Assembly (NCBI GenBank): GCA_945861635.1
Contig: CAMAWH010000022.1
Coordinates: forward strand, 1-64,000
DNA length: 64,000 nucleotides
Direction of reading: 5' to 3'
Source: Klebsiella pneumoniae
Lineage (GTDB): Bacteria > Myxococcota_A > UBA796 > SXON01
The notes beneath the pieces are model-generated. The model searched no databases and was not told where the DNA came from. It worked only from the letters and a program-made list of their open reading frames with translations. Positions 10,452-57,929 of this stretch are shown here, piece after piece (position 1 is the first letter of the stretch; each line of letters opens with the position of its first letter). The translations under genes were made by a program, and so were the position numbers.

Positions 10452-12224
10452 ATGCTCGACGCGCCGAACCCGTGGGAGTGGGCGGTCTTGGCCGGGGCGG
10501 TCGCCGGTGGCGTCGCCGCCAGAGGCGCGGCGTGGGTGCGACTCCCTGCGTGGGTGCGACTCCCTGCGTGGGTGCGACCCCCTGCGCTGGCCAGTGCGTC
10601 CGAGCGTGCGGGCTGGTGGCTGGACGTCGTGCTGGTGATGGGCGGTCTGCTGACGACCCTGCCCGCCGTGCTCGCGCTCTGGCGCCGGCTCAGTCCCTAC
10701 GGTTCGCCGATGGGCGCGGACGCCGACGGAAACTTCCTGGCGGCGGTTGCGCTGGCGCGTGATCTGCCGGCGTTGTACCCCGGGGATAGGTATCCTGGGT
10801 TCGCCGCCATCGTAGCGGCGGTGGCTCCGAAGGCCACGGACCTGCCCGCCGCAGGCTTGTGGGTGAGCCACACCGCGGCGGTCGTGGCGGCGTGCTGCGT
10901 GTACGCTCTGGGGAGGCGTTGGCACGGTCGGGCCGCGGGCGTCCTCGCCATGCTTGTGTACCTTCGATTGCCAGGAGTAATGGATGTAGGACGACAGTTC
11001 ACGCCATACATGGTGGTGGCGGCGCTCGATGCAGCGGCGTTGGTGCTGGCCGGTTCGTTGCTGGACGGTCGCAGGGCGGGCATTCCGCTGGCCGTCGTAT
11101 GCGGGATGTTGTTTGTCATGGACGCGAAGCAAGCACCTGTCGCGCTCGGACTGGTTGCGTTTGGCGCCATTACGGCGGCGGCGCGTCGCCAGTGGCCGGC
11201 TGCGGTCGCGCTGAGTGTTGCGATTCCGTTGGCGAACGTCTGGGCGGGATCCCTGCGCGTGCCGATCTTCAGCGTCGATCACATCGCGGAGCGCGTAAAC
11301 CTCGGTGTTACCGGCCAACCCGAGCCGGACGACGGTGGGTTCGTTCTCGGGCGATCGCTCGCGGCGCTTCCTGGTTCGATGCTGCGGCTCGCCCAGCAGG
11401 CGCCGACTCGGCCGCGGTCCTGGTTCGACCCGCGGGTCGCCCCAGCGCTCGCGATGGAATTTCCGCGCACGACGCCGATTTGGTTGGGATTTGCCGCAGT
11501 CGCTGCGCTCGCACCGCTCGCGCGCCGCCGGTCTCCGCGCCGGTTTGCGTGCCTCGCTGAACCGGCGCTCTTGCTGCCGTACGGCGCGCTCGCCGTCGGT
11601 GTCCTTCATTTGCACTTCCAGCATCGCTATTTTACGGCGCTTTCGACGCTGCTGGTGCCGCTCGTGGTGTCGGGCATCGGCATCGTCGGGGGGCCGGGGG
11701 CCGTGGCGGGAGCCGCCGCTGTCGCGCTGCTGCTGCCTGCGTCGCCGTGGCATGCACTGGCCCCCGACGTCCTGGGTGCGCCCATCGGGGATGCCGAGCC
11801 GTGGGCCGGGGTGGAGCCGCCGGATTGGACGCAATCGCTCGCTGCGGCTGGCGCCGAATTCCCCGCCGACGCGGAGGTCTTTGACTACGCCTCCAGCCGC
11901 CCCTGGACGATGTTGGCCGCAGCGTTTCCGTACCACCGCTGCGCCAGCGCCACTGCGAATTGCGGCCGGCTGATTGCCACGACCGTGCACACGCCGGTCG
12001 CGATTTTTGTCGCGGAGGAGGGGTTGAGCCTCAGCGTGCCGGACGCCCGAACGGCCTTGCGCCCGCTCTCGCCAGTGAGCCCGTCCCTCGTGTGCTGGAC
12101 ACGGCTGTACGCGCGACCCGGGCAGGGTGGCGCATATGGGTGGCAATGCGAGGGTCGTCCGGACGGCGCCGTTCACCGTCGGCTGGACGCCGGTTTGGCG
12201 CCGCCCGTTCAGGCGCCGGGTTAG
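10452..12224 (+). CDS. Polytopic membrane protein, possible GT-C-fold glycosyltransferase
   Basis: This 590-residue protein has roughly ten hydrophobic segments. An acidic PMGADADGNFLAA follows the first large hydrophobic segment, the general layout of GT-C/GT39-type membrane glycosyltransferases, which place acidic residues in the first extracellular loop. That assignment is weak and other polytopic families fit. The C-terminal 150 residues are soluble-looking with paired Cys. The start is the ATG at 10452, 22 bases after the dnaE2 part; TACCAT (10439-10444) sits seven bases before it, suggesting a leaderless transcript. Residues about 27-44 are three copies of a six-residue unit from an 18-bp DNA repeat. 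Confidence 0.6.
   Translation: MLDAPNPWEWAVLAGAVAGGVAARGAAWVRLPAWVRLPAWVRPPALASASERAGWWLDVVLVMGGLLTTLPAVLALWRRLSPYGSPMGADADGNFLAAVALARDLPALYPGDRYPGFAAIVAAVAPKATDLPAAGLWVSHTAAVVAACCVYALGRRWHGRAAGVLAMLVYLRLPGVMDVGRQFTPYMVVAALDAAALVLAGSLLDGRRAGIPLAVVCGMLFVMDAKQAPVALGLVAFGAITAAARRQWPAAVALSVAIPLANVWAGSLRVPIFSVDHIAERVNLGVTGQPEPDDGGFVLGRSLAALPGSMLRLAQQAPTRPRSWFDPRVAPALAMEFPRTTPIWLGFAAVAALAPLARRRSPRRFACLAEPALLLPYGALAVGVLHLHFQHRYFTALSTLLVPLVVSGIGIVGGPGAVAGAAAVALLLPASPWHALAPDVLGAPIGDAEPWAGVEPPDWTQSLAAAGAEFPADAEVFDYASSRPWTMLAAAFPYHRCASATANCGRLIATTVHTPVAIFVAEEGLSLSVPDARTALRPLSPVSPSLVCWTRLYARPGQGGAYGWQCEGRPDGAVHRRLDAGLAPPVQAPG
10530..10583 (+). repeat. Three 18-bp in-frame tandem repeats
   Basis: GCGTGGGTGCGACTCCCT is present at 10530-10547 and 10548-10565, with a one-base variant at 10566-10583. 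Each copy encodes AWVRLP (AWVRPP in the last). Copy-number change would lengthen or shorten the N-terminal region in frame. Confidence 0.9.
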
Positions 12225-30735: not shown

Positions 30736-32373
30736 CTAGAACGCGTCGAGATACACGCCGTACAAACCATCCTCGTTGAGCGCCTCGATGCTCACGACGC
30801 GTGGTTCGAGCGCGAGTCCACCTACGTTGAGCAGTCCGCCGAGATCGAACGAGAGATTTCCCATGAGCAGCCCTGCCAAACCCTCGACGACGCTGCCGAG
30901 TTGCGCACCGACGTCGGCCTGATTGACGCCGGTGGCGCCGTAGGTCAGCACGATGGCCTGTTTGATGTCGAAGTGTGCGGACACCTCCGTGCCATTCATC
31001 CCGAGATTCACCACGCCGAACAGCTGCGCATCGAGCCAGGGGTGACACTGACCCTCTTGAATGATCTGCATACTAACCTGAATATCAGGTAGGTACGCGC
31101 GCGCCGATGGATCTCCCGTCCCTGCCGCCATGCGCACCACACGCGCGCTCCCGGTACGGAGGCCGATGCAGTAGCCCGTCGTGTTCGTCGGAATTTGTCC
31201 GCCGCCGGGGAGGGCGGCGATTCCTGCCCCGAGCATCTGGCCGTAGGCGCCGTCCAACTGCATGTCGATGTCCACAAACCCTGCGAGCGTCTCATCCATG
31301 ACGACGTTCAGCATGCCTTCGTGGACCGCCGCGCCAAGCTGGTAGAGGGTGCCGTCTTTCGTGGCGGGGGGGAGCGAGGATAACTCCGGCATGTCGTCGG
31401 GGGCACCCTCGTCGTACCCGACCGTCAAGCCAAGAATCACGCCCGTGCGGTCTGCGTGCACGTCGACCAGCTTGGCGGACAGGGTCGTATCGAGCAGAGG
31501 AAGCTCGAACGCGAACGGCCCGGCCACCTCGATGGCGCCAAGCTGATCGAGGAGCACGTCCACGAGGAGTGCACCGCCATCCGCGATCAATCCGGCGATG
31601 GGATCGACGAGCAACTGCATCAGCCAGTCGGGCATGTCGAACCCATCGACCGACAAGCCGATCTCACCCATGTCAGCGGTGGCGGCGGAAAGTTCCAGCG
31701 TCAGCATGTCGTCGGCGAGCGCCGGGGTTGCATCTGCGCCGATGCTCACCTCTCCCAGGGTGATGGTCATCGGGAACTGCGCCCAACCCAGCACATCGAC
31801 GTCCGCGGCGATGGCAACGTCGTGAAGCGTTCCGACGAGCTTCACAGCGTCGTCCGCCGGCGAGAGGTCCACCGTCGTTCCCGTGGACGTGAGCGAGGTC
31901 GGTGTCAGCGAGAAGTACGCCGTGTCGATGGCAGGCAGGGCTGTAAAAAGCTGGTCCTCCCAACCGAGTCCGTCGATCATGTCCCCTACGATCGGCTGCA
32001 ACGCGTCGAGGCCCGCTGGCGTCAACAACCCTGCAATCGCACCGGGGTCGGCAAGGCGGGGATCCTTCCCATCGAACACAGGGACGATCCGCCGGGCTTC
32101 TTCCTCGCCTTTGTTGGCCGTAACGTTGATGAGCTGCGCGCGGTCGGTGAAGTCGACGGTGGTGTGGAACACGCCGTTTTCATCGGCGTGGACGAGCGTG
32201 CCGTCGACGAGAACGCCGGCGTCGGCCGGTGATACCGTTCCCGTCACGCTGATCGGGCCATCACCGAGGAATTCGCCATACGACGGTGAAGTCAGCGTCA
32301 GTTCGACTGGAACCGGCGCTGGGCCGCGAATGTTGTAGTCGGTGCAGGCGGACAGGACGAAGGGGAGCAACAT
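30736..32373 (-). CDS. Large lipoprotein, Ig-like N-terminus
   Basis: This 545-residue lipoprotein has signal peptide MLLPFVLSAC, with the lipobox Cys at residue 10. Residues about 20-95 look like an Ig/carbohydrate-binding-type beta domain (LTSPSYGEFLGDGPISVTGTV). The remainder alternates Leu-rich strands and helices with many acidic residues and few Cys. I chose the ATG at 32373: minus-strand TACACT (32381-32386) ends seven bases before it. The frame stays open far upstream only because the repeat array there has no stops. Function unknown; surface or periplasmic location expected. Confidence 0.72.
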   Translation of the reverse strand: MLLPFVLSACTDYNIRGPAPVPVELTLTSPSYGEFLGDGPISVTGTVSPADAGVLVDGTLVHADENGVFHTTVDFTDRAQLINVTANKGEEEARRIVPVFDGKDPRLADPGAIAGLLTPAGLDALQPIVGDMIDGLGWEDQLFTALPAIDTAYFSLTPTSLTSTGTTVDLSPADDAVKLVGTLHDVAIAADVDVLGWAQFPMTITLGEVSIGADATPALADDMLTLELSAATADMGEIGLSVDGFDMPDWLMQLLVDPIAGLIADGGALLVDVLLDQLGAIEVAGPFAFELPLLDTTLSAKLVDVHADRTGVILGLTVGYDEGAPDDMPELSSLPPATKDGTLYQLGAAVHEGMLNVVMDETLAGFVDIDMQLDGAYGQMLGAGIAALPGGGQIPTNTTGYCIGLRTGSARVVRMAAGTGDPSARAYLPDIQVSMQIIQEGQCHPWLDAQLFGVVNLGMNGTEVSAHFDIKQAIVLTYGATGVNQADVGAQLGSVVEGLAGLLMGNLSFDLGGLLNVGGLALEPRVVSIEALNEDGLYGVYLDAF

Positions 32374-32392
32374 GGGCGGCAGTGTAGCTGGG

Positions 32393-32686
32393 GAACCCAG
32401 GAACCCGGAACCCAGGAACCCGGAACCCAGAACCCAGAAACCAGGAACCCAGAACCCAGAACCCAGGAACCCGGAACCCGGAACCCAGAACCCAGGAACC
32501 CAGAACCCAGAACCCAGGAACCCAGGAACCCGGAACCCAGGAACCCGGAACCCGGAACCCGGAACCCAGAACCCAGGAACCCAGGAACCCAGAACCCAGA
32601 ACCCAGAACCCAGGAACCCAGGAACCCAGAACCCAGGAACCCAGGAACCCGGAGCCTGGAGTCTGGAACCCGGAGCGCGGAGGCCG
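32393..32686. repeat. Tandem array of 7-8 bp units (GAACCCA / GAACCCAG / GAACCCG)
   Basis: Reading the plus strand, 35 units run without interruption from 32393 to 32651: 21 units of 7 bp (GAACCCA or GAACCCG) and 14 of 8 bp (GAACCCAG, one GAAACCAG). Five degenerate units continue to 32686. The three unit types alternate irregularly. The array begins seven bases beyond the -10-like TACACT of the divergent lipoprotein gene and ends 30 bases before the hairpin. It has no spacers, so it is not a CRISPR array, and no stops in any minus frame, which creates long spurious reading frames. Confidence 0.95.
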
Positions 32687-32715
32687 AGGGCGATATTGTC
32701 GGCTTTGTCCAGCAC

Positions 32716-32797
32716 TCTCCATCGGGCCGCGGGTTGGCTGCGGCGGGCCCCTCACAAGTGAGGGCCCGTCCTCGCTCAACCCGCGGCCCGATGGAGA
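32716..32797. repeat. Nested hairpin with 21-bp perfect arms before the four-helix-bundle gene
   Basis: Bases 32716-32736 are perfectly complementary to 32777-32797 (21 bp, G+C rich). Inside, 32744-32755 pairs with 32758-32768 (11 bp, one bulged C, AA at the tip). The distal arm contains an ATG (32791) and the GGAGA ribosome binding site for the ATG at 32803. In RNA the structure would hide that site; in DNA it could extrude as a cruciform. Confidence 0.92.
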
Positions 32798-32802
32798 AAC
32801 TC

Positions 32803-33126
32803 ATGGAACACTACTTCGACCACGAAAATCTACTGGCCTACCAACTCGCGCGTGACGTCGCGCGCTGGGTGTTTCACGACGCGCGGTTTCCGGCCGGAAG
32901 CGCGTCCTTGAAGGACCAAGCCGTCCGCGCGGCGCAGTCCGTTGCGCTCAACATCGCAGAAGGACGGAGTCAAGCGGGCAATGCCCGGTTCAATCACTAT
33001 CGCATCGCAGCGGGTAGCGCGGCGGAGGTCTGCGCGGCCTTGGACCTTGTCAATATTGAGGGATCCGCGGTGCAGCAGCAGAAGTTGCGGCGGGTCAGGT
33101 CGATGCTCCACGGGTTGGGTGCTTAG
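32803..33126 (+). CDS. Four-helix-bundle protein (23S rRNA intervening-sequence family)
   Basis: This 107-residue protein is helical throughout. It begins MEHYFDHENLLAYQLARDV, then has SLKDQAVRAAQSVALNIAEGR (about residues 35-55), the signature of the S23/IVS four-helix-bundle family, and a third helix FNHYRIAAGSAAEVCAALDL. The family occurs inside 23S rRNA intervening sequences, as stand-alone genes, and as the Avd subunit of retroelements, and is usually thought to bind nucleic acid. Here no rRNA or reverse transcriptase is near. The ATG at 32803 has GGAGA six bases upstream, within the hairpin arm; an in-frame ATG at 32791 lies inside the arm. Confidence 0.88.
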   Translation: MEHYFDHENLLAYQLARDVARWVFHDARFPAGSASLKDQAVRAAQSVALNIAEGRSQAGNARFNHYRIAAGSAAEVCAALDLVNIEGSAVQQQKLRRVRSMLHGLGA

Positions 33127-33192
33127 CGGTCGGTGACGACGATCGCGCGTTCGCACGCGATTCGTCGTACACTATCGCATGCGGGGTCGCCC

Positions 33193-33540
33193 ATGAAGCC
33201 AGCGCGAATTGTCACTGTCCTCTCCGGGCTTCTCGCCATCGGGGCGGTGGGCGTTGCGGCCCGCGCCGAGGCGGCGCCGATCGAAAGCCAATGTTCAATC
33301 GACAGCGCGACGCGCGTTGCCATCGCCGTGATGAACACCAGCCCGGACGACACCTTCGACATCTTTTGGGTCAACTACCGATGCGAGGAAATCTACAAAG
33401 GCACCATCGCGCCGGGCGAGAGATGGGACCAACGAACGTTCCTTTCGCACCCGTGGCGCATCCGTGAGGCCGACTCCGGCCGCATGGTCAAACAATTCGT
33501 CACCAACGCGAACACGTCCGTGATCACGTTCGTCAAGTGA
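33193..33540 (+). CDS. Secreted VHL beta-domain-like protein
   Basis: This 115-residue protein has a signal peptide (MKPARIVTVLSG...ARAEA, cleavage near residue 28). The mature part has the strand order and Trp/Pro/Gly spacing of the von Hippel-Lindau beta domain: FDIFWVNYRCEE, YKGTIAPGERWDQRTFLSHPW, IREADSG. In eukaryotes this domain recognises hydroxyproline; bacterial members are known only from sequence as far as I am aware. A -10-like TACACT lies at 33168-33173. A five-codon reading frame (33179-33196) ends in a TGA that overlaps the ATG. Confidence 0.68.
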   Translation: MKPARIVTVLSGLLAIGAVGVAARAEAAPIESQCSIDSATRVAIAVMNTSPDDTFDIFWVNYRCEEIYKGTIAPGERWDQRTFLSHPWRIREADSGRMVKQFVTNANTSVITFVK

Positions 33541-46125: not shown

Positions 46126-48234
46126 TCAACTCCGGACGAGGAGGTAGACAACGAGGAGCACGGCGACAACCCCGCCGAGGATCGCCATCACGAGAATGTA
46201 GGGGTCCGTCTTGAGCTGGTGGAGGGCGCGGTCAACAACGCCGGGTTCACTGGTAGGTTCATCCTCGGCCGTGTCCTCCTCGTCGTCCTCGACGTCGCGA
46301 GTGCGCGCCGGGCGCGGAAGCGCCTCATACGTCCAGTTCTTTGGCTGCTTGTACGCGCCTTCATCCTCGGGCACCGGCTCCGCAACCAGCGGCCCCGCAA
46401 TTTGCGTCGGTGCCGTGAGCGGTGGGGCGGTCAGCGCTGTGGGGGGAGGCTCAGGATCGACTGCGGGAATCGGCCGCGGTCCGGCGCCCGCTGCGAGCGC
46501 CCCGGCGAGGTTCGGCGCCGGGCGCGTAACGCGGACGGGCTCGCGCGGGAGGTCACCCGGCGCGCGAGATTCGGGCGCGCGGGCCGGCTCCGGCGCGCGG
46601 AAGGCCTCCGGTGCGCGGAAGGCTTCGGGCGCGCGGGCCGGCTCCGGTGCGCGGAAGGCTTCGGGTGCGTGGGCTGGTGGCTGAGTGGCATCGGGATGCC
46701 GGGCCTCCAACGCGCGGTGCGCGTCGGTTTGCGGTTGTGGACGCGTGATTCTGCCGCTGTCGGCCGGGAGAGGGCTCTGCGCAGCCGAACGGGCCGCGGA
46801 CGCCGTTTCCCTGGACCCACCGGGCTCCGGCCCCGGCCGCGTCACGCGAGTCGGCTCCGGTGGCCCCGGATCGACCGGAATGGTGACGCCCGTGGTCTCA
46901 CGATTGAACGGAATCGCGCCGCTCGGGGGCGCCTCCGGCGGCGGCACCCAGCCCGGCGCCGCCCGGATTTCAAACTCCGTTTCCGCCGTTGCCGGGGGTT
47001 GCCCCGAGTCGCGAATCGCAAACGCAATGCGGGCGCGGTAGCGAGCGGGCGCCAGCGAAACGGCGCCGTTCTGCCCGCCGATGCGGAACGCAAAACGATA
47101 TCGGCCCGACGGGTGCTTATCGACCGTGTACCCGAGGTCGAGTTCCTTGAGGCGGTTGTCACGTTCGAGGTCGAAGACGGCGACGCCTACCCCGATCTCC
47201 TCGTGACCCTCAACCCCATTGGTGCAACCAACCGTGCACGAGAATGCCACCGATTCGTCCGTGTCAAACCACGGCTTTGCGGCAACCCGCTCCATCAGCA
47301 CCTTGCCGACGGAGCTGACCTGCGGGCGGATGAGCGATGCGACTTCCTCAAGCCGTGCCTGCAACTCATCCGTGCGCTGAAATCGGTATGGGGGAGAGGG
47401 CTGGACTTCCGCAGATAGCGCGCGAGAAAGCAGCACACCCACGCGCTCGGCAAGGCGGCCGTGGAAGCGCGGATTGCTGTCCTCCTGCTTCATTCGGTCC
47501 GTTACCTTGTCCTTCACGGCACCCACCGCCGTTTTATCGAGCCCGCGCTTGGGGAACTCTGGTGCGACATCAACGCCGACGACGCCGCGCCACAGCATCG
47601 CCGCTATCGCGTAGGTGTCGGCGACCGCGGCGAATTGCGGTTCACCGGTGGCGCCGGTCAATTCGGGCGGCAGGTAGGGCTGCCCCCCCTGAGACACCGC
47701 AACGAGCCTGCTGATGGTGCGCCGCAGCGCGGGCGTAGCAACGTCCGTGAGAAAAATCTCTCCGCGCTCGTTGAAGAGCACGTTCGACGGGCGCAGCGCC
47801 CCATGAATGCCGCCGCTGGAGGTCAGCAGGCGGACGTTTTTTGCAACGGTGAGCAGAACGTCGAGCAGCGCGCCGACGGCAATCCCATCCGCGATCCGCC
47901 GGTCCAGCGATTCCGAAAACTTCGGCAGGATGATGGCCGGGAGCCCGTCGGGAAGCGTGAAGCGCGCCTCTAACCTCGGTAGAAAGGTATGGGCGCCCTG
48001 CTCGTAGAGCCGCGCCTGCTCCAGTAGCGCTTCCCGGGCGGCGGTAAGCACGGCGTCCGACGCAGCAACGTCACCCTTGAAGTCCTCCGCGCCCAACGGG
48101 CACTTCAGAACATGCGTCGAGTCCGTATCCTCTCGGCGAACGACATAGCTTTTACCCCACAACCCCCGCCCGAGGAGCTGCCCGATTTGGTAGGAGTTGC
48201 CCTGACCGTCCCGTACGGTATCGCCCGTCTTCAT
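46126..48234 (-). CDS. Membrane-anchored Ser/Thr pseudokinase with Pro-rich linker
   Basis: This 702-residue protein has a kinase-like domain (about residues 10-290). The G-loop LGRGLWGKSYVV and the VAIK-type Lys (HVLKCPL) are kept, but the catalytic loop is HGALRPSN instead of HRDLKPxN and DFG is DVA, so the catalytic Asp is missing. A beta domain (about 325-470) is followed by a long Pro/Ala/Arg linker with repeated FRAPEP units and a C-terminal membrane helix (YILVMAILGGVVAVLLVVYLLV). It probably senses or scaffolds rather than phosphorylates. I chose the ATG at 48234; frame continues upstream. It lies directly before pepA. Confidence 0.82.
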   Translation of the reverse strand: MKTGDTVRDGQGNSYQIGQLLGRGLWGKSYVVRREDTDSTHVLKCPLGAEDFKGDVAASDAVLTAAREALLEQARLYEQGAHTFLPRLEARFTLPDGLPAIILPKFSESLDRRIADGIAVGALLDVLLTVAKNVRLLTSSGGIHGALRPSNVLFNERGEIFLTDVATPALRRTISRLVAVSQGGQPYLPPELTGATGEPQFAAVADTYAIAAMLWRGVVGVDVAPEFPKRGLDKTAVGAVKDKVTDRMKQEDSNPRFHGRLAERVGVLLSRALSAEVQPSPPYRFQRTDELQARLEEVASLIRPQVSSVGKVLMERVAAKPWFDTDESVAFSCTVGCTNGVEGHEEIGVGVAVFDLERDNRLKELDLGYTVDKHPSGRYRFAFRIGGQNGAVSLAPARYRARIAFAIRDSGQPPATAETEFEIRAAPGWVPPPEAPPSGAIPFNRETTGVTIPVDPGPPEPTRVTRPGPEPGGSRETASAARSAAQSPLPADSGRITRPQPQTDAHRALEARHPDATQPPAHAPEAFRAPEPARAPEAFRAPEAFRAPEPARAPESRAPGDLPREPVRVTRPAPNLAGALAAGAGPRPIPAVDPEPPPTALTAPPLTAPTQIAGPLVAEPVPEDEGAYKQPKNWTYEALPRPARTRDVEDDEEDTAEDEPTSEPGVVDRALHQLKTDPYILVMAILGGVVAVLLVVYLLVRS

Positions 48235-55366: not shown

Positions 55367-57929
55367 CCGCGAGTCCGCCCGGCGCTTTCACTTCCTGCGC
55401 GAGATCGCGTCCGGCGGGTTCGGTAGCGTCTACCTTGCCAAGGTGATGCACGCCGATGGCTTCTCTCGCTTGGCTGCAATCAAACTCCTGCACCGCAAGT
55501 GGTCGGAGAACGAAGAAATCGCAACGCGTATGCGAGACGAAGCGCGCCTGCTCGGCTGGCTGCGCCACCGAAATATCGTGGACGTGCTCGACCTCACGTC
55601 GATTGACGGGCGCGCGGCCGTCATCATGGAGTACCTCGAGGCCGTCGATCTGAAGCATGCGGTGCAGGAAAGTTCGGAAAAGGGAGACCGCGTACCGCCT
55701 CGCGCGTCAATGGAGATTCTCGCCTTTGTCGGATCGGCGCTGGACGCCGCATACAACCGGCCGCCGTATCAGGGTGAAAAGCCGCTGCGCGTCATCCATC
55801 GCGACATCAAGCCGTCGAACATCATGGTGGATGAGTCCGGCACCGTGAAGGTGCTCGATTTCGGCGTTGCCCGAGCGGAGTTCGAGAACCGCGAGTCGCA
55901 TACGTCGGAGCTTCAATTCGGCTCAGTGGACTACATGCCGCCGGAACGGCTCTTTTTTGAGCCGGAAACGGACCTGGCCGATGTGTATTCCCTCGGCGCA
56001 ACGCTGTTTGAGCTGTTGACGAGTGAGCGCCTCGGAAAGGCGAAAGGGCGCAAGGAAAAGCACGATGCCTTCCTGGCCGACCGCTTGTCCTACATGGCCG
56101 CGGCCTGCCCACTTCCGGCGGCCCACGCGTTGGAAGTGGCGACGCTGGTGCGGGAGATGTGCTCGTACTCCGCCGAAGGTCGCCCCAACGCCGCCAAGGT
56201 TGTGCAGCGGTGCCGGGCGCTGACCCGCGATCTTCCGGGGGAAACCCTTTCGGAATGGGCGGAGCGGGCGATTCCGCCGATGGTGAAACAGCTTCGAGAC
56301 GAGCCGAGAGAGCCGAATCCGCTCACGGACGCGATCTTGACGGAAGATGCTGTGAAGTTCGGAGGCGCTGCTGCGCCGCCGCCCGTGGAAGTGCCGCCCG
56401 CGGCCGCTCTGGCGCCGGGCGCGCCGTTCGACGATTCACCGCGTGAAATCGGCCGCGAAGATGCCCGATGGGAGATGTTGCGGCAGGCCGCGATCGCCGA
56501 GATTCAACTGACCGGAAATGGGCTGGAGGGTCCGCTGGCGGAGGCACCGGTGCCCCGGACCGGGGGCATGAACACGTTCAACGAAGAGCTGGTTGTGATT
56601 GATCAGGATGGGCCTGAGCAGTTCGACGACGAGCCGACGCGCATCGGGTCGCTCTCTGCGCTTCAGGCGTTGGTGGGGCCGGCGGTCACGGCACCCGCGC
56701 CGGTTGCGGCGCCCGCGCCGGTTGCGGCACCCGCGCCGGTTGCTGCGCCCGCGCCGGTTGCTGCGCCCGCGCCCACGCCGAGCAAACCGGCGCGGGCCAA
56801 GCCGCCCGGCATGCCTCAGGCATCGCCGACCTGGCCGCCGCAGCCGGTGATGGCCGATCCGGAGCCTTCCGTGACGCTGCCGACGCCTGGACTTGCGCCA
56901 ATGCGGGGTCCGACGATGGAGATGCCCCCGCCGCCACTGGTCAGCGCTTCGGGTCCGCCTGCTGGCGCCGTCGCGCTGCCGCTCGCGTCGTCAATGACGA
57001 TGGTGCCCGACGACGGGCGGCTCAACGCATCGATGACGATGGTGCCCGACGACGGGTTGGTCAACGCGTCGATGACGATGGTGCCCGACGACGACTATGA
57101 CGCGTCCGCCACCGTCTCCGTGCCGAATGGCCCGGCGCCCTCCCGAATCGAATTGAACGAAACGGTGAGATCCACGTTTACCGATGCCGCGGCGGCCCCA
57201 CCGCCCCCCAAATCGGCGGCGGCGTTGCCCGCGCCATCCGGCGGACCCAATCCGGCCGCCCCAAAACCGTCGGGGGCAAAGCCGCCGCCGTCCTCGGCTT
57301 CCGGTCCCGCCGCCGCAAAGGCCCCGAGCAAGGCGGCAGCTCCGACCGCCTCGCGCCCCGGCCCGTCGCCGTCCAGCGGTCGGGGGCAATTGCCGCAACC
57401 CGTGGCGTCCGGTGCGCGTGGCGCGCGCCCGTCCTCGCCGTCGCGAAGCAAGAGTCGTCCCGACCCGTTTGAGGAGCCCGCTTCTTCTGGCGCGGGCGCG
57501 TGGCTTGGCTGGGGCTTGCTCGTACTCGGGTTGGCCCTCGGCGGCGTGCTTGGCGGCGCACTCCTTCTCTACCGATTCTGGTGGTTGCCCGCACACTCCA
57601 TCTCTCCGGGAACGTCACTCGTTGCAGCGCCAGCGGTTGAGGCGCCCGGCGGCGTCGTTCCGGTCCCGCCGTCTCCCGATCCGCTACCGATCCCGGCCGA
57701 CGCGATTGTGTTCGCCTCGTCCGCGCCCGACACCACGCGAATCACCGCCAGTTGCGACGGAAAAGACTACAACGGCGTTTCTGAAGTCGTCGTGCCGGGC
57801 CCCACGGCGGAGAATTGCCTGGTCAAGGTGGTGCTGAAAGATCGGTCGCGATTGATGGCAGAGGTCGCGGGCGCCACGACGGGGAACTACGCCTGCTTTG
57901 CTGGCGGGGGCAAGGAGTGCGCCCGGTAG
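55359..57929 (+). CDS. Transmembrane Ser/Thr protein kinase
   Basis: This 856-residue kinase has a complete catalytic domain (about residues 10-285): G-loop IASGGFGSVY, AAIKLL, HRDIKPSN, LDFGVAR and PPERLF. A Pro/Ala-rich linker follows, with (APAPVA) repeats and three TMVPDD units, then a membrane helix (about 700-730) and a short extracytoplasmic domain with two Cys pairs (ITASCDGKDY, ENCLVKV, YACFAGGGKEC). TACGTT ends eight bases before the ATG, which suggests its own leaderless transcript despite overlapping the previous gene. The kinase is embedded within the ketosynthase genes, so it may regulate that pathway. Confidence 0.9.
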   Translation: MASRESARRFHFLREIASGGFGSVYLAKVMHADGFSRLAAIKLLHRKWSENEEIATRMRDEARLLGWLRHRNIVDVLDLTSIDGRAAVIMEYLEAVDLKHAVQESSEKGDRVPPRASMEILAFVGSALDAAYNRPPYQGEKPLRVIHRDIKPSNIMVDESGTVKVLDFGVARAEFENRESHTSELQFGSVDYMPPERLFFEPETDLADVYSLGATLFELLTSERLGKAKGRKEKHDAFLADRLSYMAAACPLPAAHALEVATLVREMCSYSAEGRPNAAKVVQRCRALTRDLPGETLSEWAERAIPPMVKQLRDEPREPNPLTDAILTEDAVKFGGAAAPPPVEVPPAAALAPGAPFDDSPREIGREDARWEMLRQAAIAEIQLTGNGLEGPLAEAPVPRTGGMNTFNEELVVIDQDGPEQFDDEPTRIGSLSALQALVGPAVTAPAPVAAPAPVAAPAPVAAPAPVAAPAPTPSKPARAKPPGMPQASPTWPPQPVMADPEPSVTLPTPGLAPMRGPTMEMPPPPLVSASGPPAGAVALPLASSMTMVPDDGRLNASMTMVPDDGLVNASMTMVPDDDYDASATVSVPNGPAPSRIELNETVRSTFTDAAAAPPPPKSAAALPAPSGGPNPAAPKPSGAKPPPSSASGPAAAKAPSKAAAPTASRPGPSPSSGRGQLPQPVASGARGARPSSPSRSKSRPDPFEEPASSGAGAWLGWGLLVLGLALGGVLGGALLLYRFWWLPAHSISPGTSLVAAPAVEAPGGVVPVPPSPDPLPIPADAIVFASSAPDTTRITASCDGKDYNGVSEVVVPGPTAENCLVKVVLKDRSRLMAEVAGATTGNYACFAGGGKECAR
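56693..56775 (+). repeat. Tandem 18-bp repeat encoding APAPVA in the kinase linker
   Basis: GCGCCCGCGCCGGTTGCG and close variants are repeated four to five times. Each unit codes APAPVA. Such Pro/Ala tracts typically form stiff extended linkers. Confidence 0.8.
56991..57104 (+). repeat. Three 39-bp repeats encoding SMTMVPDD units
   Basis: Copies start at 56991, 57030 and 57069 (the last diverges after about 27 bases). Each encodes SMTMVPDDGxxNA. The regularly spaced Thr with acidic surroundings would suit phosphorylation and FHA-domain binding. Confidence 0.85.

Follow-up and report, generated by a model that had tools for sequence, protein, structure and literature searches.

A gene for a 23S rRNA-intervening sequence protein beside a short-period repeat array, and its probable place in a widespread class of mobile intervening-sequence elements

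A tandem array, a nested hairpin and a small gene lie in a row between two protein-coding genes in the 64-kb stretch of DNA analysed here (the window). The array (32392..32674, + strand) is composed of GGAACCC, GGAACCCA and AGAACCC units and is the sole array of period 5-9 that TRF detects in the window (period 7, 38.4 copies, score 314). Between 32393 and 32666 it contains exactly 35 GAACCC cores, spaced by 7 bp (19 times), 8 bp (13 times), 15 bp (once) and 21 bp (once), which bears out the 35 units of irregularly alternating 7 and 8 bp given in a preliminary description of the locus; units at the right end are degenerate. The array pattern is unique to this locus: a pattern search of the 5.58-Mb draft genome for GGAACCCNGGAACCC found no further occurrence.

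The perfect inverted repeat reported next to the array in that description is equally real. A perfect-arm scan placed its 21-bp arms, with zero mismatches, at 32716..32736 and 32777..32797 (+ strand), and RNA folding placed an inner stem-loop between them, on the same strand (approximate limits 32740..32773). The minimum free energy of the hairpin RNA is -73.2 kcal/mol against -37 +/- 3.6 for shuffled sequences (z -10.1), and the window has only two other sites where perfect arms of at least 12 bp enclose a loop of at most 60, both with shorter arms. The right arm holds the first ATG of the gene that follows (32791..33126, + strand), which encodes a 23S rRNA-intervening sequence protein (IVP); translation could start at 32791, within the arm, or at 32803, and the stop codon is at 33124-33126.

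Both neighbouring genes encode proteins and lie outside the element, and the IVP gene is thus not inside an rRNA gene. The left neighbour (545 aa, 30736..32373, - strand) has its start codon 18 bp from the array, and the right neighbour (33133..33540, + strand) has a VHL beta domain (PF01847, 25.0 bits). No second array, and no arm complementary to the first, was found between the IVP gene and the right neighbour, and the two flanks score only 18 in inverted and 22 in direct orientation: the window copy is one-armed. Orthologues of the left neighbour are present in 10 of the 21 other genomes of the window's family (22 genomes with the window's own), and upstream of that gene all 10 lack both an IVP match and an array of period 5-9. 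Since the right flank is not conserved in those genomes, this amounts to absence of the element rather than a strict empty site; no strict empty site was found for the window copy, nor a target duplication around it.

Assignment of the gene to the IVS family of four-helix bundles, also made in the preliminary description, agrees with profile searches and structure prediction. The protein scores 52.0 bits against PF05635 (cut-off 33.8) and 47.2 bits against TIGR02436 (cut-off 24), and its predicted structure is a four-helix bundle (pLDDT 95.1) that Foldseek matches to 2gsc (TM 0.83) and 2rld and, more weakly, to Avd of diversity-generating retroelements (8ub7, TM 0.71; 4dwl, TM 0.65). A resemblance of PF05635 to Avd is noted in PMC10053308. 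The PDB entries 2gsc and 2rld each contain five chains, consistent with a pentamer, and the model fits a fold like that of pentameric 2GSC and Avd. A diversity-generating retroelement was considered and rejected: the window's genome (88% complete) has no match to the reverse transcriptase PF00078. The IVP protein is under purifying selection, with dN/dS of 0.04-0.21 among diverged copies within genomes or among plasmids (a count that leaves out L158, where the motif was not picked up); the value of 0.86 for two near-identical copies, L121 and L232, derives from four changes only and is uninformative. Carriage by phages was rejected: among 50,697 phage records, no IVP match was found at E 1e-5.

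The window's genome has four IVP loci. One of them (L001) repeats the arrangement in the window with a different repeat sequence: a hexamer array is followed by a hairpin whose end lies at the ATG, by the gene and by a reverse-complement array (inverted score 65). A second (L002) has a start rich in inverted repeats and imperfect 7-8-mer repeats upstream, and another (L004) is truncated. Elsewhere in the genome the window hairpin matches only 48 bp at the start of another IVP gene. Downstream (3') of the IVP genes, L002 (1400-1470) and L004 (1850-1910) have a sequence in common that is bounded by GGGCCTCC...GGAGGCCC-like palindromes and followed by a similar stretch; it represents a second repeated element in this genome.

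The array, hairpin and gene in the window could be chance neighbours or a decayed, inactive remnant, consistent with the single array, its lack of a second copy in the genome, the missing second arm and the missing duplication. This reading is the strongest of the alternatives and yet a doubtful one: the same components recur in the same order and orientation in L001 and in L031, L149 and L150, and dN/dS between L002 and L003, both from the window's genome, is 0.10.

Within the window's phylum, IVP genes and short-period arrays go together. The family is present in 44 of 140 genomes, and an array of period 5-9 (TRF score at least 50) lies within 500 bp of 21 of 33 IVP loci, compared with 1 of 30 control loci, which were same-order loci fetched for chance pattern hits; the other 12 of the 33 have no nearby array. 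Among the loci with 400 bp on both sides (26 of 32), the flanks pair in inverted orientation at 16 and in direct orientation at 4 (score at least 38), with no such pairing between flanks of different loci. Perfect hairpins with arms of at least 14 bp near the IVP start are found at 4 of 29 loci and in none of 113 control stretches, which makes the hairpin a feature of a subset only (29 of 32 loci were used; L027, at a contig end, and loci with short flanks were left out of this count and of the 26 above).

The preliminary description mentioned similar repeats, of other sequence, beside such genes in other phyla, and proposed comparing the flanks of TIGR02436/PF05635 genes; that comparison found repeats of differing sequence strongly enriched beside homologous genes in many phyla. 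Eighty named loci were fetched, of which 79 were kept (L041 is on the same contig as L012) and 75 have flanks of 250 bp at each end. Their record titles point to about a dozen phyla: Bacteroidota, Planctomycetota, Acidobacteriota, Chloroflexota, Bacillota, Pseudomonadota, desulfobacterial groups, Elusimicrobia, Nitrospirae, Verrucomicrobia, Poribacteria, KSB1, CPR, Actinobacteria and an archaeon. The left flank matches the reverse complement of the right flank (score at least 30) at 42 of 75 loci, compared with 1.06% of cross-locus pairs, 1.01% of 1088 same-locus windows and 4 of 586 similarly sized ORFs. The remaining 33 of 75 have no significant inverted match, and direct matches reaching 30 occur at 8 of 75. 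Arrays of period 5-9 lie within 250 bp of 24 of the 75 genes versus 11 of the 586 control ORFs, and TRF coverage is 9.35% and 9.08% on the two sides up to 250 bp from the gene versus ~0.5% beyond. Furthermore, an enclosing stem of at least 20 pairs is predicted at 64 of 75 loci, against 60 of 208 control stretches.

The flanks of IVP genes are thus complementary locus by locus, usually as 7-bp arrays (the commonest period is seven) whose unit differs between loci: AGCTATC/GATAGCT in L045, AGTAGTT/CTAACTA in L089, and 35 copies of CGGTGGA with 34 of CCACCGT in L120. Aligned units nevertheless give a consensus, RGYNRTN, of 4.87 bits (shuffles: mean 3.44, maximum 3.54), which falls to 3.89 bits when the right arrays are not reverse-complemented. 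The window unit GGAACCC is similar to a Geobacter unit, TCGGAAC (L113), and fits this consensus only partially. On the contig of L106, an inverted pair of arrays, AGTGGAT / CTATCCA, lies far from the IVP gene, at about -3924 and -3866 relative to it; this pair encloses no gene, and its unit nearly equals that of the arrays at the IVP gene itself. L068 and L082 have similar distant arrays.

Copies dispersed within a genome were found close to the window's lineage. One genome of the window's order (G043) has dispersed copies by the dozen, bounded by terminal inverted repeats. Seven similar IVP copies in it end sharply in unrelated DNA; a contig end truncates L160. The terminal repeat of these copies, GGGCGCGATN6AAGCCG, is found at 117 places, compared with one for the reversed pattern, and forms pairs about 385-560 bp apart. 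Pairs at 385-420 bp occur, and one of these short-spaced pairs (L201) is an internally deleted copy. Many of the ends lie ~130 bp from contig ends. A 9-bp duplication flanks L156 and L201, two of seven copies readable on both sides, and none of the others. Together, the terminal repeats and 9-bp duplications imply a transposase acting in trans, which qualifies an earlier claim that the element moves without any transposase: the element itself carries none, but in this genome one would be supplied from elsewhere. The transposase was not found in G043, and in a genome of the window's family (G096, L213), the stretch behind a related end holds ORFs that were unrecognised by eye. In G104 and G096, both of the window's family, many contigs have a G043-like terminal end ~130 bp from their own end, which makes a multi-copy element left unassembled likely there too.

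These copies could be taken to mean that IVP elements are passengers in MITE-like elements whose terminal inverted repeats are recognised by a resident IS transposase. The number, pairing and orientation of the G043 terminal repeats favour this, as do the duplications. As a general account, however, it is rather unlikely: cyanobacterial insertions (below) end in arrays and duplicate 5 bp, not 9 bp, and a pattern search found the G043 terminal repeat absent from the window's genome. Another genome, G012, also argues against it. There, two IVP genes lie tail to tail, each with its start at a long hairpin, and the arrays at the outer ends directly adjoin the flanking DNA. The G012 stems differ between copies and stay paired, which selection or arm-to-arm conversion could explain.

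Insertion as a unit can be read in plasmids. IVP matches are present in 44 of 72,556 plasmid records, mostly from cyanobacteria. At a Trichormus site, the element is present in ATCC 29413, 0441 and NIES-4073, and six plasmids with flanks 97.4-97.7% identical are listed without it; two of these six (L231 and L233) were examined directly, and both are empty. The comparison sets filled Trichormus and Scytonema plasmids against empty ones from N. linckia and N. carneum. Without the insert the sequence is AAAAAGTAATTAAC, and the filled site has GTAAT at both ends of the insert, a 5-bp duplication. At a Nostoc plasmid site, filled in L122, L235 and L236 and empty in L237, L239, L240 and L241, TTCTA is likewise duplicated at both insert ends. 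Clean 5-bp duplications are readable at these two of eight filled/empty sites, the others being too diverged or rearranged. Neither of these two best empty sites contains an array: arrays and gene arrive together, and the IVP gene with its arrays inserts as one unit in cyanobacterial plasmids. The left array differs in length between L121 and L232, copies of one insertion. In L235 (1120-1370), the Nostoc IVP gene is itself split by a gene-less inverted-array stretch holding a palindrome, a case of nested insertions; similar gene-less stretches are found in the neighbouring gap of L236 and L237, and none in L240.

Presence and absence also differ at further sites. In PCC 7003 the element lies between cas10 and cmr3, and PCC 7002 is without it; in Pseudanabaena CCNP1313 it lies between cas6 and cas4, where ABRG5-3 instead has just a short array with a different unit. 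The Anabaena 90 site is filled, and that of Dolichospermum UHCC 0315A is not. At L243, L244 and the C|D gap of L238, insertion is polymorphic with no clean duplication readable. The L244 element, missing in Calothrix NIES-4105, lies antisense between the genes for the alpha and beta subunits of ribonucleotide reductase on a Nostoc plasmid. Such insertions would readily explain the IVP genes reported in 18 cas loci in PMC3936711. The earlier proposal of a mobile element is therefore borne out in relatives, on cyanobacterial plasmids and in G043 of the same order, but not in the window copy itself, which has neither second arm nor duplication.

Alternatively, the arrays may be host DNA, either as pre-existing targets of the element or as a property of array-rich gaps in which IVP genes settle. 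Gene-less heptamer arrays do occur in the same kinds of gaps; the array is thus not strictly tied to the IVP gene. With that reservation, the earlier refuting condition, array and gene varying independently between strains, did not come true: on the cyanobacterial plasmids the two are present or absent together, at sites up to 97.6% identical. The short array of other unit in ABRG5-3 and the direct flanking arrays at 4 of 26 phylum loci also favour host DNA. We nevertheless consider this reading unlikely: the two best empty sites lack an array, and paired arrays are mostly inverted, an arrangement that insertion into one array cannot yield. Least probable of all is a regulatory role, in which the arrays serve the IVP gene in ribosome binding or RNA stability and expand by slippage, and the gene belongs to the ordinary accessory genes of the host, for example in CRISPR operons. 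Left arrays often have purine-rich units and immediately precede the start codon, purifying selection acts on the gene, and the 18 cas loci would fit. This reading leaves unexplained the complementary array 3' of the gene, the polymorphic insertions with their target duplications, an insertion into a 23S rRNA gene (L128, below) and the cas operons without an IVP gene.

We therefore propose, with a probability of about 0.72, that the gene and array in the window belong, as a one-armed copy, to a widespread class of mobile intervening-sequence elements. In its complete form, such an element would consist of a short-period array, the IVP gene and the same array inverted, inserting whole into intergenic gaps, often within operons and sometimes in rRNA genes. 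In the transcript, both arrays would pair into a long stem around the IVP gene, and RNase III likely cuts this stem, allowing the host to tolerate the insertion; such cleavage is shown in print for the Coxiella 23S rRNA IVS. The arrays presumably grow and shrink by slippage, with the arms kept matching each other though the unit varies by locus. In part of the window's phylum, array and gene have a hairpin between them at the start codon. Probably an Avd-like pentamer, the IVP protein would most likely bind the element's own single-stranded or folded nucleic acid. Since the protein has no known catalytic site, a strand-cutting enzyme is presumably supplied in trans from elsewhere; no mobilising enzyme for IVP elements was found. 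The window copy has the IVP gene and upstream short-period array in the order and orientation fixed for this class and lacks the downstream inverted array, and we take it as a derived member whose own mobility would follow from that of its relatives.

The closest known system is the intervening sequence (IVS) of 23S rRNA. In Coxiella burnetii, according to PMC4990558, the 23S IVS has terminal inverted repeats and demonstrated RNase III excision, is termed a selfish element, with mobile-element hypotheses cited, and has, ahead of the start codon, two or three heptameric direct repeats (GACAGAT) depending on the strain. The protein family is common to both, as are complementary ends that would form a stem around the gene; this stem is absent in the window copy, and complementary flanks are present in relatives at the 42 of 75 named and 16 of 26 phylum loci given above. 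One of our loci (L128, on an Azospirillum lipoferum plasmid) is judged, from inspection of its flanks by eye, to interrupt a 23S rRNA gene, and its GAGGACG-type array and inverted partner form a stem of ~25 bp (z -9.3); no other was found in such a gene, and the 23S of L128 has no match in any of the 79 named loci. Unlike the known rRNA intervening sequences, the elements described here are nearly all between protein genes, have arrays of up to dozens of units that form both arms, and show insertion polymorphism with target duplications.

Short tandem arrays are also known from other bacterial genomes, among them the STRRs of cyanobacteria. Heptamers of GGGAATC in Xanthomonas, with 70-75 inverted pairs, and of GGGGA(C/T)T in Nostoc are described by Rehm et al., who, in the portion available, leave their function open and report them as generally without mobile-element association (PMC4692102); in Beggiatoaceae, the repeat is TAACTGA (PMC4679880, likewise in part). 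These are, as here, 7-bp intergenic arrays of variable copy number, and related repeats flank the IVP genes of this study, but neither paper, in the parts available, draws a link to IVP genes. The published heptamers partly fit RGNNRTN, which is weak given the 14 rotations and strands and serves as a lead only; the Xanthomonas and Nostoc heptamers may be connected to IVP elements. No link between IVP genes and repeat arrays was found in the literature searched, which comprised listings of open-access papers and passages from some of them. Within that literature, heptamers are already known from one rRNA IVS and as repeats without an explanation, and the association of IVP genes with arrays appears to be new.

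REPIN/RAYT systems and MITEs are likewise non-autonomous elements with a hairpin or terminal inverted repeat that are mobilised in trans. The G043 copies have a terminal inverted repeat, as MITEs do, and in two of seven a 9-bp duplication; the window's genome is without that repeat. To our knowledge, locus-specific arrays as element ends are a feature of neither REPs nor MITEs. A REP-like hairpin family or REPIN was rejected for the window, its hairpin not being repeated in its genome. The genome does contain two matches to Y1 (HUH) transposases (Y1_Tnp; G000:C61:24806-25132 and G000:C96:6696-7022), and no perfect hairpins with arms of at least 11 bp were found near either one in the stretches fetched. 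Foldback (FB) elements of Drosophila, which are eukaryotic and much larger, also have inverted termini of short tandem repeats; the likeness is confined to these ends, and no relation is claimed.

IVP elements look like a widespread and largely overlooked kind of selfish element. More tentatively, they could be minimal "bacterial foldback elements" that span phyla and consist of a pentameric nucleic-acid-binding protein with inverted arrays as ends; gene-less derivatives might then account for a good part of the heptamer repeats, and the rRNA intervening sequences would be a special case. Conceivably, the IVP pentamer assembles on its own repeats, with about one unit per subunit, and so drives insertion with a 5-bp stagger. 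If true, this would join three loose ends that can each be tested directly in cyanobacterial cultures: the source of rRNA intervening sequences, the abundant, unexplained intergenic heptamer repeats, and the orphan IVP/S23p family, which turns up in cas and conjugation operons. It would also make variable tandem arrays serve as transposon termini, an unusual design in bacteria.

Rfam gave only sub-threshold matches (vertebrate-type microRNA families and Chloroflexi-1), which we take as chance. Elsewhere in the window, four further tandem repeats (10530-10586, 46574-46669, 56689-56773 and 56994-57093) have periods of 18, 36 or 39 bp and are probably coding repeats, because these periods are multiples of three.
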